Assembly: GCF_000346505.1 (NCBI RefSeq)
Contig: NZ_ANOH01000120.1
Location: forward strand, 1-46,061
From: Aporhodopirellula sallentina SM41
GTDB lineage: Bacteria; Planctomycetota; Planctomycetia; Pirellulales; Pirellulaceae
DNA length: 46,061 nucleotides
Reading direction: 5' to 3'
Position 1 is the stretch's first letter; the number at the start of each line of letters is the position of its first letter. The position numbers and the translations under genes were made by a program. Shown here one piece after another: positions 28,131 through 36,869 of the stretch. The notes under the pieces were generated by a model. The model was not told where the DNA came from, made no database searches, and saw only the letters and a program-made list of their open reading frames with translations.

Positions 28131-30734
28131 TCAACGGACATTCAGTTCTACCGGTTTGCTTTCCAGTCCGGCTGCTCGCGCCCGTACGACACACTCACCT
28201 CGCGTGAAGCCCGATTGAATGATCGCCATCGCACGCCCGTGGTGCGACGTCACTGTCGGTCGGTAGTGAGGTTCGACGTTTTTCTCCCAACCGTTATCGA
28301 CCGCGAGAAGCTTGGCCGCGCCCTGAACTTCGAAGTCGACGGAGACATCTTCGGTGCAGATCCGTTGCCCCGAGCGATCCACCAAGACGGCACGCACATG
28401 AGCGACATCGTAACCATCAGCCTCGAGACAACCGGTGTCAGAAACCAATTCTATGCCCGCCAGTTCGCCGGCTGTTGAAAGTGAGTAAGACCGAGTAGCA
28501 CCGCTGTGATGAACCGCGGTCACTGACAGTTCGCCTTCTTCGAACGGCAACATCCATTTGATGATATTGTCATCGGGGAAATCTTCGAGACGTTGTTTTC
28601 CCAGGCTGCGTCCATTGAGAAACAGTTCCGCTTCCTCGCAGTTTGTATAAACCTGAACCACGATGCTTTCCCGCGAGCGGTAGTTCCAATGTTCGTTAAC
28701 GGGATACCATTCCCACTTCCGCAAAGCACTCCAGTAGGGAGGTTCGTGCATCTGCATCTCGAACTGCCAACCGTCTTTTTCCGAATAGGTGTACTCGGAT
28801 TTGGATGCGGGTGTGGTGACCATGTAGACCTTCGGTTCGTCTTTCCACAGACACTCAAAGAAGTGTCCCCGCGGAGTCTGGAATCCCGCGTAGTCGAAGA
28901 AGGAAAGGTTGAGTCCCTTGCGTGGCCAAGGACCGGCTTCTCCCAAATATGCAAAGCCGGTCCACGCGAACATGCCACTGACAAACTCGCGGTCGCGGAC
29001 AGCTTTCCATTCTGAGTAGGCACCCCAGTTCTCGGAACCGATGATTTTCATTTGGGGATACGTTGCATGTGCGGCGTCATAGCATTCGGCTCGGTAATTG
29101 AATCCTGTGATATCAACCGCATCGAAGTATCCGCTCACCGCCGAAATGCTCGGACGCACGCTGCCGCAGGTCACCGGTCGGGTGATGTCCTCTTCTTTTA
29201 CCCACCTGGACAGTCGCTGAGCGATGGTGGCGAGCGGGTCTTCACCTTCAGTGACTTCATCCAACGCTGGTTTGACAACCGCGGGATCAAACACCGGTAC
29301 GGTCTCACCTTGCACCGATTCCGGATTCAGACGTGCAAATACTTGAGAGTAATGCGGGAAGGTCCATTCGATTTCGTTTCCGATACTCCACATGATTACT
29401 GATGGGTGATTGAAGTCTCTGCGTATCAGATCTTTGAGGTCACGTTCTGCCCACTCATCGAAGTAATTCGTGTAGCCGTTTGTGGCGTCCATCGTTTCAT
29501 CCGGATGATCACCGAGATACCGGATGCTCTTTGCTTTCGGACGATCCCACTCGTCGAAGAACTCGTCCATCACGAGCATGCCCATCTCGTCACACAGGTC
29601 CAACAATTCGACCGAATGCGGGTTGTGCGACATTCGTATCGCGTTCACGCCGATCGACTTGAGTTTCGCAAGCCGATACCTCCAAACCGCTTTAGGGACG
29701 GCCGCTCCAATTGCCCCAGCGTCGTGATGAAGATTAACGCCTTTGATCTTTGTCGAGACATCGTTGAGAAAGAAGCCGCGATCCGCATCGAAACGAATCG
29801 TACGGATGCCAAACGTTGTTTCGACACGATCGAGCGTTTTTTCTGTGTCACGAACATTCACAACGAGCCGGTACAGGAAGGGCGATTCGGTGCTCCAACG
29901 TTTCGGATTCGGCAAGCCGACGTTCGCTCGATAGCCGTCGTCTTGTTTCGATGCCCGCACGATATCCGACACGCGGTCGTCACCTTCGAAGACACAAACC
30001 TCAACGATCGGTTCTCCCGCAGTCGTTGTTTGAGTCGAGGACTTCTCGATTTCGACCCGAACGTTGATTGCGGCGTGGTCTTCACGGACCAGTGGCGTTG
30101 TGACTCGCACGCCCCACTGAGGAATATGCGTCGGTGCCGTTTTGACCAATCGAACGTTGCGGTAGATCCCCGATCCCGTGTACCACCGCGAGTCAACATA
30201 GGCGGAGTGATCGACCTTGACGATGATTTCGTTTGTCGAATCTCCAAATCGTAGATGCGGCGTCAGGTCGTATGAGAAACTGCTATAGCCGTTCGGTCGA
30301 AAGCCGAGATGATGTCCGTTGATCCACACGTCTGACCGACAGTAAACACCGTCGAATTCGATGCGGATGTTTCGGCCGCGGTCTGATGCCGGCAATCGAA
30401 ATGACTTGCGGTACCAGGCGACGCCTCCGGGCAGGAATCCCGTACTCGCTGCAGTGTTTTCCTGGCGATAGGATTCCCGGATGCTCCAGTCATGCGGCAG
30501 GTTGATCTTTTGAAACTTCAGATCCGCGTCAGGGATAACGGCAATAGAACCATCCGAGCGATCGCACTTCGCAAACAGCCAACCGAAGTTAAAGTCCTCG
30601 GTCACGCGAGGCGACGGGCTCTCGAAATCAGTGCCCAATTTGTGACCGCTGTGCACCGTGTGATCATTGCCTGTCGCGCGGTCTGAAATTGCCACAAAGG
30701 TCACCGCGATCAGAACCCCGATCAACCTGTTCAT
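28131..30734 (-). CDS. GH2 beta-galactosidase-type enzyme, secreted (paralogue)
   Basis: 867 residues, signal peptide MNRLIGVLIAVTFVAISDRATG. It has the same domain order as the convergent GH2: jelly roll (FNFGWLFAKCDRSDG, LPHDWSIRESY), Ig-like, barrel (IKGVNLHHDAGAIGAAVP). Acid/base is Glu454 (WSIGNEIEW) and nucleophile Glu568 (IIGSENWGA). The start is the ATG at 30734; a GTG directly before it is the other choice. The two GH2s share many motifs but differ around the nucleophile (TENVPQ versus SENWGA), so their substrates probably differ. It is the last gene of the isomerase-to-enolase operon (15 bp after the enolase stop), which ties that operon to a galactoside substrate. Confidence 0.9.
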   Translation of the reverse strand: MNRLIGVLIAVTFVAISDRATGNDHTVHSGHKLGTDFESPSPRVTEDFNFGWLFAKCDRSDGSIAVIPDADLKFQKINLPHDWSIRESYRQENTAASTGFLPGGVAWYRKSFRLPASDRGRNIRIEFDGVYCRSDVWINGHHLGFRPNGYSSFSYDLTPHLRFGDSTNEIIVKVDHSAYVDSRWYTGSGIYRNVRLVKTAPTHIPQWGVRVTTPLVREDHAAINVRVEIEKSSTQTTTAGEPIVEVCVFEGDDRVSDIVRASKQDDGYRANVGLPNPKRWSTESPFLYRLVVNVRDTEKTLDRVETTFGIRTIRFDADRGFFLNDVSTKIKGVNLHHDAGAIGAAVPKAVWRYRLAKLKSIGVNAIRMSHNPHSVELLDLCDEMGMLVMDEFFDEWDRPKAKSIRYLGDHPDETMDATNGYTNYFDEWAERDLKDLIRRDFNHPSVIMWSIGNEIEWTFPHYSQVFARLNPESVQGETVPVFDPAVVKPALDEVTEGEDPLATIAQRLSRWVKEEDITRPVTCGSVRPSISAVSGYFDAVDITGFNYRAECYDAAHATYPQMKIIGSENWGAYSEWKAVRDREFVSGMFAWTGFAYLGEAGPWPRKGLNLSFFDYAGFQTPRGHFFECLWKDEPKVYMVTTPASKSEYTYSEKDGWQFEMQMHEPPYWSALRKWEWYPVNEHWNYRSRESIVVQVYTNCEEAELFLNGRSLGKQRLEDFPDDNIIKWMLPFEEGELSVTAVHHSGATRSYSLSTAGELAGIELVSDTGCLEADGYDVAHVRAVLVDRSGQRICTEDVSVDFEVQGAAKLLAVDNGWEKNVEPHYRPTVTSHHGRAMAIIQSGFTRGECVVRARAAGLESKPVELNVR

Positions 30735-30749
30735 CACATTCTCAATTTT

Positions 30750-35351: not shown

Positions 35352-35354
35352 CTT

Positions 35355-36869
35355 TTAACGGCTCAATCCATAGTTGGCGTCGGATTGGCGAAGCGGCACT
35401 TCGGTGAGCGAACAGAAATGATTCAGCATTCGCAGTTCTTCATGCCAGTGCCCGTATCCGACGCTCCAGTGGTGATCGAGCCCGGCGTCGAAAATCGTTC
35501 CCATGATTTGCCCAATGTTGGCCTTGCTCGTCGGTTTCATCAAACCGTAAGTGCCGCGGTAGTCCAGTTCGGTATCCACGAATTCACCTTCAAAGGCAAA
35601 CCATTTTGTCGCGTCAGGAGCCTGGTATCGCATTGCCGTGATCGGCCCGTTGGCCAACAAAAACTCGAGCATCAAACCGACCGCGGTTTTGGGATCGCCG
35701 TTTTCAAGAATCGAATGCCGAGTTGCTGAAAACTGAGTGCCAGGTTTTAACAGTCGAGTCGGGGATGCACCGCAGTGCCAAATCCCCAATCGATTTTCGG
35801 GCACCTTCCACAGCGACAAATCCATCATCGTTGGAACCGCGTCGCCGTTGGACAACAACCACAACGCGAGCGACGACAGCAGCCCGTTCATCTCGCCTTC
35901 TTCGGCGACGCAGAAGCCATAATCGTTCATCATCGAAACCGAACCGTCGATTGCGCATTGATAGCAATCAAACAACTCCGGCCAACTCTTCACCGTCGCA
36001 CCGATGTATCCGTGTTCGGCGGCCAAATCGAGGATACCCAGACCAAACCGGTATGTTTGCAATATTTGTTCTTCAGGCACCTGCACCGCCGCGCATCCGG
36101 GGTGACCGATCAAAGCGTCTTTCAAACGGTTCACGTCCGCATCGGTGAACCGTTTGTTCGCATGTTGATAAACCGCCTCGAGGTCGATCCTGTCGAATCG
36201 ACAACCGAGATTTCTCATCACGGCGAGTTCATCCACCTCGCCGTCATAGAACGCCGTCACCCGTGAACCACCGGCGTGCAGTAGCTTCGCGTGACGAAAT
36301 TGATCTCGTGCAAACGTCGCTCGCGAGAATTTGCGTAGAGTCGGATGAGCCGACGGATCGATCTGTTCATGCAACCACGCGTAGGGCACGCCCATCTGCG
36401 TCCACATCTGCTGCAAGAAATTCTGACAGGTCAGACTATTGGCTTCGTTGGACGCACCGTTGCCCGGTTCCGGCCACGCCCAAGAAAGCAGCGGCACCTT
36501 GTGATCGAGCAACCATCGGCCGAGGTGCGATCCGATTTCACCGGCGGTGTATGCGGCGTGGAAAAACACGATCCCGGCCAGCCCCTTGTTCAGCTCTCGA
36601 TCGAGCAGTTCGCAAAGAGCATCCGGATCCTCGAAAGGCTCGTCCGCTCGAACGATCTCCACCGGTAAGTCGGCGGTCGCCGAGCAGACTTCCGAGTACG
36701 CCGCGTCGTACCGCTGGCAGGCTTTGTCCCATGGGAAGTGAATCTTCACTCCACAGGCAACCACCAAGATTCGACTCGGCCGGAGCGTCCGGGGTGGCCG
36801 CACCAAATCGGAGAGAACGTCGTTCAGAATGCCTTTTTCGGGCAACGCATAGTTGGGTGTCGTGCTCAT
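35355..36869 (-). CDS. L-fucose/arabinose isomerase-superfamily protein
   Basis: 504 residues. The N-terminal part is a Rossmann-like domain (LRPSRILVVACG) and the C-terminal part has FucI-C features: ATVKSWPEL (about 299-307), VAEEGEMNGLLSSL with putative metal-ligand acid residues (about 331-344), and WHCGASP (about 374-380). These proteins interconvert aldoses and ketoses with a Mn/Mg ion. The degree of divergence is high, so the substrate cannot be called; L-fucose, L-galactose, D-arabinose and D-galactose are all candidates. I use the ATG at 36869 (MSTTPNYALPEKG) rather than an upstream in-frame start at 36917. First gene of a six-gene operon, divergent from an AraC regulator. Confidence 0.75.
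   Translation of the reverse strand: MSTTPNYALPEKGILNDVLSDLVRPPRTLRPSRILVVACGVKIHFPWDKACQRYDAAYSEVCSATADLPVEIVRADEPFEDPDALCELLDRELNKGLAGIVFFHAAYTAGEIGSHLGRWLLDHKVPLLSWAWPEPGNGASNEANSLTCQNFLQQMWTQMGVPYAWLHEQIDPSAHPTLRKFSRATFARDQFRHAKLLHAGGSRVTAFYDGEVDELAVMRNLGCRFDRIDLEAVYQHANKRFTDADVNRLKDALIGHPGCAAVQVPEEQILQTYRFGLGILDLAAEHGYIGATVKSWPELFDCYQCAIDGSVSMMNDYGFCVAEEGEMNGLLSSLALWLLSNGDAVPTMMDLSLWKVPENRLGIWHCGASPTRLLKPGTQFSATRHSILENGDPKTAVGLMLEFLLANGPITAMRYQAPDATKWFAFEGEFVDTELDYRGTYGLMKPTSKANIGQIMGTIFDAGLDHHWSVGYGHWHEELRMLNHFCSLTEVPLRQSDANYGLSR

Follow-up and report, generated by a model that had tools for sequence, protein, structure and literature searches.

The L-fucose pathway, which treats the 6-deoxy form of L-galactose, isomerises its sugar with FucI, phosphorylates the ketose at C1 with FucK and splits the product with FucA into dihydroxyacetone phosphate (DHAP) and a three-carbon aldehyde. 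Sulfoquinovose pathways of the sulfo-Embden-Meyerhof-Parnas type likewise use an isomerase, a ketose kinase, an aldolase and an oxidation of the aldehyde. Here we describe an operon of six genes that seems to follow the same plan and to end it in another way. It lies in a stretch of 46,061 nucleotides (contig NZ_ANOH01000120.1 of assembly GCF_000346505.1, hereafter called the window) from the 8.2-Mb genome of the marine planctomycete Aporhodopirellula sallentina SM41, and encodes a predicted sugar isomerase, a ketohexokinase-family protein (Khk), a class I aldolase-like protein, a kinase of the APH fold, an enolase paralogue and a GH2 glycosidase. The reading that this operon degrades the rare sugar L-galactose, set free from the porphyran-type units of galactans of red algae, and does so through an aldol route whose last steps are new, has in our estimation about an even chance of being right. 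We also propose, tentatively, that the altered enolase and its APH kinase together make up an undescribed two-enzyme module that leads from L-glycerate to phosphoenolpyruvate (PEP), with an enolase of reversed handedness, and that this module is spread over seven phyla and served by several feeding pathways.

The isomerase-kinase-aldolase plan is already known; the end module appears to be new and is the more interesting part. A bacterial L-galactose route has been described for Luteolibacter LG18, as one side of a dual L-glucose/L-galactose pathway. Unlike the route proposed here it is oxidative, with dehydrogenases leading to D-tagaturonate, then D-altronate, 2-keto-3-deoxygluconate (KDG) and an aldolase that acts on KDG-6-phosphate, and its abstract names no ketose kinase or enolase (PMC12632266). 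An L-galactonate dehydratase in an 'unidentified' L-galactose metabolism was mentioned as unpublished data in a passage of a 2019 paper (PMC6336799). In the open-access papers searched, only a single genus has a complete bacterial L-galactose route, which is oxidative; an aldol route for this sugar, an APH-linked enolase or a paper combining L-glycerate, enolase and L-galactose was not found. Mammals reportedly turn L-galactose into L-lactate and glycerate, going by the title of a report of Chan et al. from 1979. Glycerate from L-galactose is also what we infer for some of the loci described below, those with hydrolases of the FAH type; the mammalian conversion differs in its use of L-fucose-degrading enzymes, and the title mentions no kinase-enolase step.

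The six open reading frames are co-oriented on the minus strand, in the order isomerase, Khk, aldolase, APH kinase, enolase paralogue and GH2 (Table 1), just as a preliminary description of the same DNA had placed them. The tight coupling that it reported is borne out: the isomerase and Khk genes are 3 bp apart (TAA-AAG-ATG), Khk and aldolase 14 bp, the APH and enolase genes overlap by four bases (ATGA) and 12 bp separate enolase from GH2. A gap of 140 bp between the aldolase and APH genes had gone unmentioned. For the isomerase, the ATG at 36869 fits as the start, and a GTG at 36917 begins the longest open reading frame. The order from isomerase to enolase recurs in four other genomes (loci L039, L040, L041 and L043 of our comparison), so that the genes are together and not scattered. 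The nearest named loci are those of Rhodopirellula rubra (L040) and Aporhodopirellula aestuarii (L039), with an enolase paralogue that is 82% identical.

The families proposed in the preliminary description also held, for two of the proteins at the level of the fold. Pfam profiles recognise Khk (PF25270, 153 bits against a cut-off of 35), the APH kinase (PF01636, 79 bits), the enolase paralogue (Enolase N, 171 bits; Enolase C, 316 bits) and GH2. The isomerase and the aldolase, neither of which has a Pfam match at E 0.001 or a useful match in a sequence profile search against the PDB, were assigned by fold. An AlphaFold model of the isomerase (mean predicted local distance difference test, pLDDT, of 65, with the last 98 residues unreliable) was placed by Foldseek in the arabinose/fucose isomerase fold, with AraA chains from E 3e-12, FucI at 1e-7 and a template modelling (TM) score of about 0.5. 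In Pfam and NCBIfam the protein matched neither AraA nor FucI, and PF02952 picks another gene of the genome instead. A search of 392 genomes of the phylum with the isomerase gave a match in 28, all of them, apart from the window's own, at 28% identity or less. The aldolase model (pLDDT 69) was placed in the fold of LsrF and class I fructose-bisphosphate aldolases (3glc, E 2e-10), with LacD tagatose-bisphosphate aldolases among the Foldseek matches, and the sequence weakly matches models of the LsrF/ADH-synthase type (20-24 bits). Its Lys225 is invariant in 7/7 sequences, and a Schiff-base role is assumed from its position.

The partnership of the kinase and the enolase extends far beyond this operon. 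A scan of genome contigs gave 123 enolase relatives, of which the best 80 were taken as loci and the other 43 left out; since two of the 80 (L115 and L117) are canonical enolases, 78 paralogue loci were counted. Two of the six patterns used in the scan contain paralogue-typical residues (one of these being the fixed Trp 208), and none spans Glu168 or His373. An APH kinase relative lies less than 400 bp upstream of the paralogue, on the same strand, in 75/78 loci, the exceptions being L080, at a contig edge, and L070 and L077, with no APH gene. The paralogue tree includes Planctomycetota, Verrucomicrobiota, Acidobacteriota, Bacteroidota, Balneolota, Myxococcota and Pseudomonadota, many of them as metagenome bins. 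Within the window's class, an APH relative at E 1e-10 was found in 59 of 148 genomes, the window's among them. Nine of the 11 planctomycete APH loci fetched from outside the window have an adjoining enolase; in ten larger planctomycete stretches an enolase is adjacent in eight, and the other neighbours, which were not profile-scanned, vary. The preliminary description had taken the APH protein for a sugar kinase and left the enolase without a role; in our comparison the two emerge as the conserved core, which would act on a three-carbon acid.

Some loci show unusual arrangements. In a draft genome of Vibrio halioticoli (L064, 4139-6400) the APH kinase and the enolase form one open reading frame of 753 residues, either because the genes are truly fused or because the stop codon was missequenced. 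The Phycisphaerales locus L077 (6034-10321) combines a sugar transporter, a D-lyxose isomerase, the same aldolase (51%), a PfkB-like kinase and the paralogue. Two-gene APH-enolase units with variable neighbours are found in planctomycetes at L170, L172-L178, L180-L186, L189 and L190.

In the paralogue, the likeness to canonical enolases extends over the whole length (TIGR01060 at 542 bits, cut-off 300) and includes the metal ligands and the main acid-base residues. It differs from them in two active-site changes and 13 further fixed ones, in being tied to an APH kinase and in coexisting with a second enolase. Using what we take to be the yeast numbering for Glu168, His373, Glu211 and the other enolase positions, Asp replaces Glu168 and Ala replaces His373 in 78/78 loci, whereas 12/12 canonical rows have Glu168 and His373. 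Glu211, His159 and Lys396 are retained in all 78, Lys345 in 77 (Asn in L107), and the metal ligands (Asp246, Glu295 and Asp320) and Arg374 in 71/71 distinct paralogue rows. With the two changes included, 15 alignment columns are fixed differently in the 71 paralogues and the 12 canonical rows, and in a quick tree of these 83 rows, with their small canonical sample, the paralogues fall on one side of a branch with an SH-aLRT support of 100. The alignment and tree leave out L064, L069, L142, L073, L080, L085, L087, L090, L113 and duplicates; the residue counts use all 78 loci.

The pair-linked enolases of planctomycetes have the Asp and Ala changes in 7/7 readable relatives, a count that leaves out L172 and L180. 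Three other changes are absent from them, namely Gly for Asn155, Trp for Ala at window residue 208 and His for Asp at window residue 378, and the two residue changes are thus the hallmark of APH-linked enolases. The paralogue is expected to remain active as an enzyme of the enolase type, with an altered pocket. A second enolase is present in 12/12 genomes searched for Enolase_C; it has Glu168 and His373 in 11 of them, and the twelfth (G399) is a fragment with Glu168. In the window's own genome, the second enolase (L126) has both residues. In the records of the Rhizobium plasmids L143 and L144, the paralogue is labelled phosphopyruvate hydratase.

The genes around the pair give indications of what feeds it. 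An aldolase homologue of class I or class II is found in 10 of the 78 loci, and seven of these ten also have an aldehyde dehydrogenase (those without are L039, L040 and L077). FAH-type hydrolases, too, are found in 10/78 loci, and in none of these ten is there an aldehyde dehydrogenase (p 0.003, with relatedness ignored). The aldehyde released by an aldolase has to be oxidised to give an acid, whereas hydrolases of the FAH type split diketo acids straight to pyruvate and a hydroxy acid; the one in L052 scores 319 bits against 2,4-didehydro-3-deoxy-L-rhamnonate hydrolase, for which the cut-off is 500. That the aldehyde dehydrogenase tracks the aldolase and not the FAH hydrolase argues that the kinase probably phosphorylates a three-carbon acid and that the paralogue probably yields PEP. 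On two Rhizobium plasmids, the APH gene lies beside a 2-hydroxyacid dehydrogenase and a PEP carboxylase, and the paralogue, in which the Asp and Ala changes were confirmed, is about 4 kb off on the other strand. The neighbouring PEP carboxylase suggests PEP as the product. The aldolase, FAH and dehydrogenase entries all appear to meet at a three-carbon 2-hydroxy acid.

Isomerase relatives are accompanied by another PfkB-type kinase and an aldolase of class II in Vibrio and Photobacterium (L062, L065 and L066) and, partly on the other strand, in Persicobacter (L145); these would be the same steps carried out by other enzymes. In Pelagicoccus and in Verrucomicrobiota JB024 an aldehyde dehydrogenase belongs to the same cluster. 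On plasmids of Rhizobium, Paraburkholderia, Pararhizobium and Cupriavidus (L143, L144, L157, L160 and L161), the paralogue and the APH kinase are accompanied by a D-isomer-type 2-hydroxyacid dehydrogenase and lie near FAH and VOC proteins, with a PEP carboxylase annotated in both Rhizobium plasmids. A plasmid of Sinorhizobium chiapasense (L158) has a sugar ABC transporter, an SDR protein, a UxuA-like dehydratase, an SMP-30-like protein (recognised by eye), APH, the paralogue and FAH, which looks like an oxidative sugar-acid route to pyruvate and glycerate.

The pathway proposed for the operon builds on its gene content and order, the families at fold level, the kinase-enolase partnership, the fixed active-site changes and the agar and porphyran surroundings, all established by computation. 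The isomerase would convert L-galactose into L-tagatose, Khk would phosphorylate this to L-tagatose 1-phosphate and the class I aldolase would cleave the latter into DHAP and L-glyceraldehyde. An aldehyde dehydrogenase, encoded in this genome outside the operon, would oxidise L-glyceraldehyde to L-glycerate. The APH kinase would then phosphorylate the 2-hydroxyl of this acid, and the enolase paralogue would remove water from 2-phospho-L-glycerate to give PEP. The order of the steps is well supported. All of the substrates, in particular the sugar itself and the L configuration of the acid, are predictions, that of the sugar being drawn from the gene neighbours. The operon also differs from the L-fucose pathway in that its isomerase, kinase and aldolase matched no fucose-pathway profile. 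The product there is L-lactaldehyde, whereas here it would be L-glyceraldehyde, which can be oxidised, phosphorylated and dehydrated to PEP. According to a passage in PMC13228409, 2-phospho-L-glycerate is sold commercially.

L-Galactose is the non-deoxy partner of L-fucose. In Microbulbifer agarilyticus (L058), two genes with porphyranase domains (PF18206 and PF18040) are divergent from adjoining aldehyde dehydrogenase, APH and enolase genes, and the isomerase gene of Pelagicoccus mobilis is immediately preceded by a co-oriented GH29 gene. L-Galactose 6-sulfate is named as a constituent of porphyran in PMC5849685, and the GH29 enzyme of B. plebeius (BpGH29) is reported to be an alpha-L-galactosidase (PMC12316285). 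According to a review, L-rhamnose isomerase interconverts L-tagatose and L-galactose, and FucA with L-glyceraldehyde gives L-tagatose (PMC3869271). A homologue of 3,6-anhydro-L-galactonate cycloisomerase is present at E 1e-60 in 14/18 carrier genomes (13 at an identity of at least 41%, two with an internal stop) and in only 2/148 genomes of the window's class, its own included, the groups not being taxon-matched. The option of L-galactose from porphyran, one of two that the preliminary description had raised, fits well with these genes and with the agar genes of the window itself. In Aliagarivorans marinus (L059, 11-1816), a GH36 melibiase-type gene is located upstream of the pathway genes and could act on an alpha-galactoside.

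Three other substrates were considered and set aside. L-Fucose is unlikely, as lactate derived from lactaldehyde has no group to eliminate and the genome encodes a Fucose_iso_C protein (PF02952) elsewhere; the outcome that the operon merely serves such a known pathway, envisaged in the preliminary description, is thus not what the computation points to. D-Arabinose would give an acid derived from glycolaldehyde that is useless to the kinase-enolase pair. A Leloir-type route for D-galactose was rejected for the operon, a galactokinase being encoded elsewhere in the genome. As the preliminary description had it, no Leloir enzyme is visible in the window: there is none among the 30 window proteins scanned, and galT and galE were not searched in the genome.

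The operon is part of an agar cluster. Its own GH2 matches 5t9a, which we take to be a GH2 enzyme from an agarose locus of Bacteroides uniformis, at 674 bits over residues 35-867, the next best match having 425 bits. The left half of the window also encodes an SDR protein, a zinc alcohol dehydrogenase, a RhaT-like transporter, a PfkB kinase, a DHDPS-family protein and a sugar ABC transporter. Positions 1-20464 can be described as an oxidative anhydro-L-galactose route with an ABC transporter within a planctomycete agar cluster. The anhydro-L-galactose half of agar seems to be already served by this route, and the operon would therefore be for something else. The divergent AraC-type gene is beside the operon in L039 and L040 as well. 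To the right (40648-45074), DUF899, YCII and glyoxalase proteins and a sigma-70-like protein with DUF6596 are apparently unrelated.

Table 1. Genes of the operon and of its surroundings in the window.
Feature	Coordinates	Strand	Assignment or remark
Isomerase, 504 aa from ATG 36869	35355..36869	-	predicted aldose-ketose isomerase, AraA/FucI fold
Khk, PfkB-fold ketohexokinase family PF25270	34209..35351	-	predicted ketose 1-kinase
Class I aldolase-like protein, TTG start, LsrF/ADH-synthase fold	33172..34194	-	candidate Schiff-base residue Lys225, invariant
APH-fold kinase	32039..33031	-	predicted (L-)glycerate 2-kinase
Enolase paralogue, Glu168 to Asp and His373 to Ala (window residues 163 and 366)	30750..32042	-	predicted to make PEP from the kinase product
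GH2 glycosidase	28131..30737	-	closest solved relative 5t9a
AraC-family regulator, divergent	36962..37825	+	open frame from 36263 crosses the isomerase gene; Met at 36962 is the likelier start
EamA/DMT transporter	37942..38871	+	adjoins the operon in L039 and L040 too
Sulfatase	38915..40429	+	adjoins the operon in L039 and L040 too
Second GH2 glycosidase	25458..28052	+	GH2 family
Beta-agarase homologue, GH50 type	20785..23013	+	best solved relative 4bq2, E 3e-94
3,6-Anhydro-L-galactonate cycloisomerase homologue	11866..12990	-	5xd7 at E 1e-102; best match 2ovl
Aldehyde dehydrogenase adjoining the cycloisomerase gene	13048..14526	-	perhaps anhydro-L-galactose dehydrogenase
Anhydro-L-galactosidase homologue, GH117 type	10025..11647	-	4u6d at 557 bits, 4ak5 at 211 bits

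A number of observations weigh against the L-galactose pathway or against the generality of its end module. The structure models of the isomerase and the aldolase are of middling confidence only, and the isomerase resembles no curated family other than that of sulfoquinovose isomerase (86-113 bits). The operon contains no aldehyde dehydrogenase gene, and the best relative (52%) that this genome has of the Pelagicoccus enzyme lies, to judge by its 4.5-kb locus, outside any pathway cluster. GH29 and porphyranase genes are each found at 1/78 loci and are absent from the 30 scanned proteins of the window, and 4/18 carriers, among them the isomerase carriers JB024 and Photobacterium, have no cycloisomerase homologue. 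A D-isomer-type 2-hydroxyacid dehydrogenase occurs somewhere in 10/78 loci; such enzymes usually make D acids, and a D acid, if this usual behaviour holds, would be ill-suited to a module for L-glycerate. Ser39, which we take to be a residue of the flexible loop of enolase, is Ala in 29/77 paralogues. The plasmid loci are looser: APH was seen in 7/9, and in four of the seven it is encoded on the opposite strand at a distance of about 5 kb. For the plasmids of Caballeronia (L156) and Azospirillum (L159), no APH is listed within 10 kb, and their paralogues carry both residue changes. Finally, the planctomycete pairs often have no shared pathway around them, so that the pair cannot be specific for L-galactose.

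Other readings of the operon have to be weighed against these same data. The preliminary description had also considered a tagatose-like route for D-galactose. Such a route could here turn D-galactose into D-tagatose, this via D-tagatose 1-phosphate into DHAP and D-glyceraldehyde, and the latter via D-glycerate and 2-phospho-D-glycerate into PEP. D-Galactose is a main product of agar digestion, the operon's GH2 is close to beta-galactosidases and LacD is found among the fold matches of the aldolase. We nevertheless consider this route unlikely, as a galactokinase was found in 5/5 genomes tested (galT and galE were not searched), and D-glycerate would feed the ordinary enolase that exists as a second copy, so that the fixed active-site changes would have no reason. 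There is also a small chance that the same logic and the same L-glycerate end serve a different L-hexose (L-gulose, L-glucose or L-altrose, for instance) or more than one. D-lyxose isomerase homologues in L043, L045, L050 and L077 (profile-checked in L077) and UxuA-like dehydratases in L052, L054 and L055 would agree with this, while the agar genes of the window point to galactose units.

It could also be imagined that the operon performs sulfoglycolysis, with sulfoquinovose converted via sulfofructose and its 1-phosphate into DHAP and sulfolactaldehyde, then via sulfolactate into 2-phosphosulfolactate, from which the paralogue would eliminate sulfite and so form PEP, running the reaction of the methanogen enzyme ComA backwards. 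The order of the steps fits, the isomerase and three relatives match only the sulfoquinovose isomerase SftI (NF048012) in NCBIfam, at 86, 107, 110 and 113 bits, and known sulfofructose phosphate aldolases belong to the class I LacD family, which is among the fold matches of the aldolase. Since (S)-sulfolactate and D-glycerate are alike in spatial arrangement, the enolase would need no change of handedness, only one of leaving group. Yet all four isomerases stay far below the curated cut-off of 700 bits, and Glu211, which in enolase protonates the leaving hydroxyl, is retained throughout. The 15 fixed changes include only one possible added positive charge (window residue 378, Asp to His), and His373 is lost. 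Among the neighbours viewed, no sulfoquinovosidase or sulfite-handling gene was recognised, no dedicated search having been made, the surroundings are agar genes, and we know of no acid kinase or enolase in the known sulfo pathways. Sulfoglycolysis is therefore quite improbable here. It is about as improbable that the APH kinase phosphorylates a sugar or an aldehyde and that the paralogue is a regulatory or redundant copy. The nearest curated model of the kinase is methylthioribose kinase (55 and 77 bits, cut-off 275), but the pair recurs without a visible aldolase in loci with FAH or a 2-hydroxyacid dehydrogenase, and also as a unit of two genes, and the main catalytic residues of the enolase are retained.

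Taken as a whole, the preliminary interpretation of this operon is partly supported. If the L-galactose pathway proposed here is right, it would be a second bacterial route for this sugar, and it would explain a second enolase that profile searches label as an ordinary phosphopyruvate hydratase. The paralogue would then be a clear example of an enolase acting on a new substrate, possibly with reversed stereochemistry. The kinase-enolase module, if it truly exists, would be a general bacterial way to bring the carbon of L-sugars into lower glycolysis.

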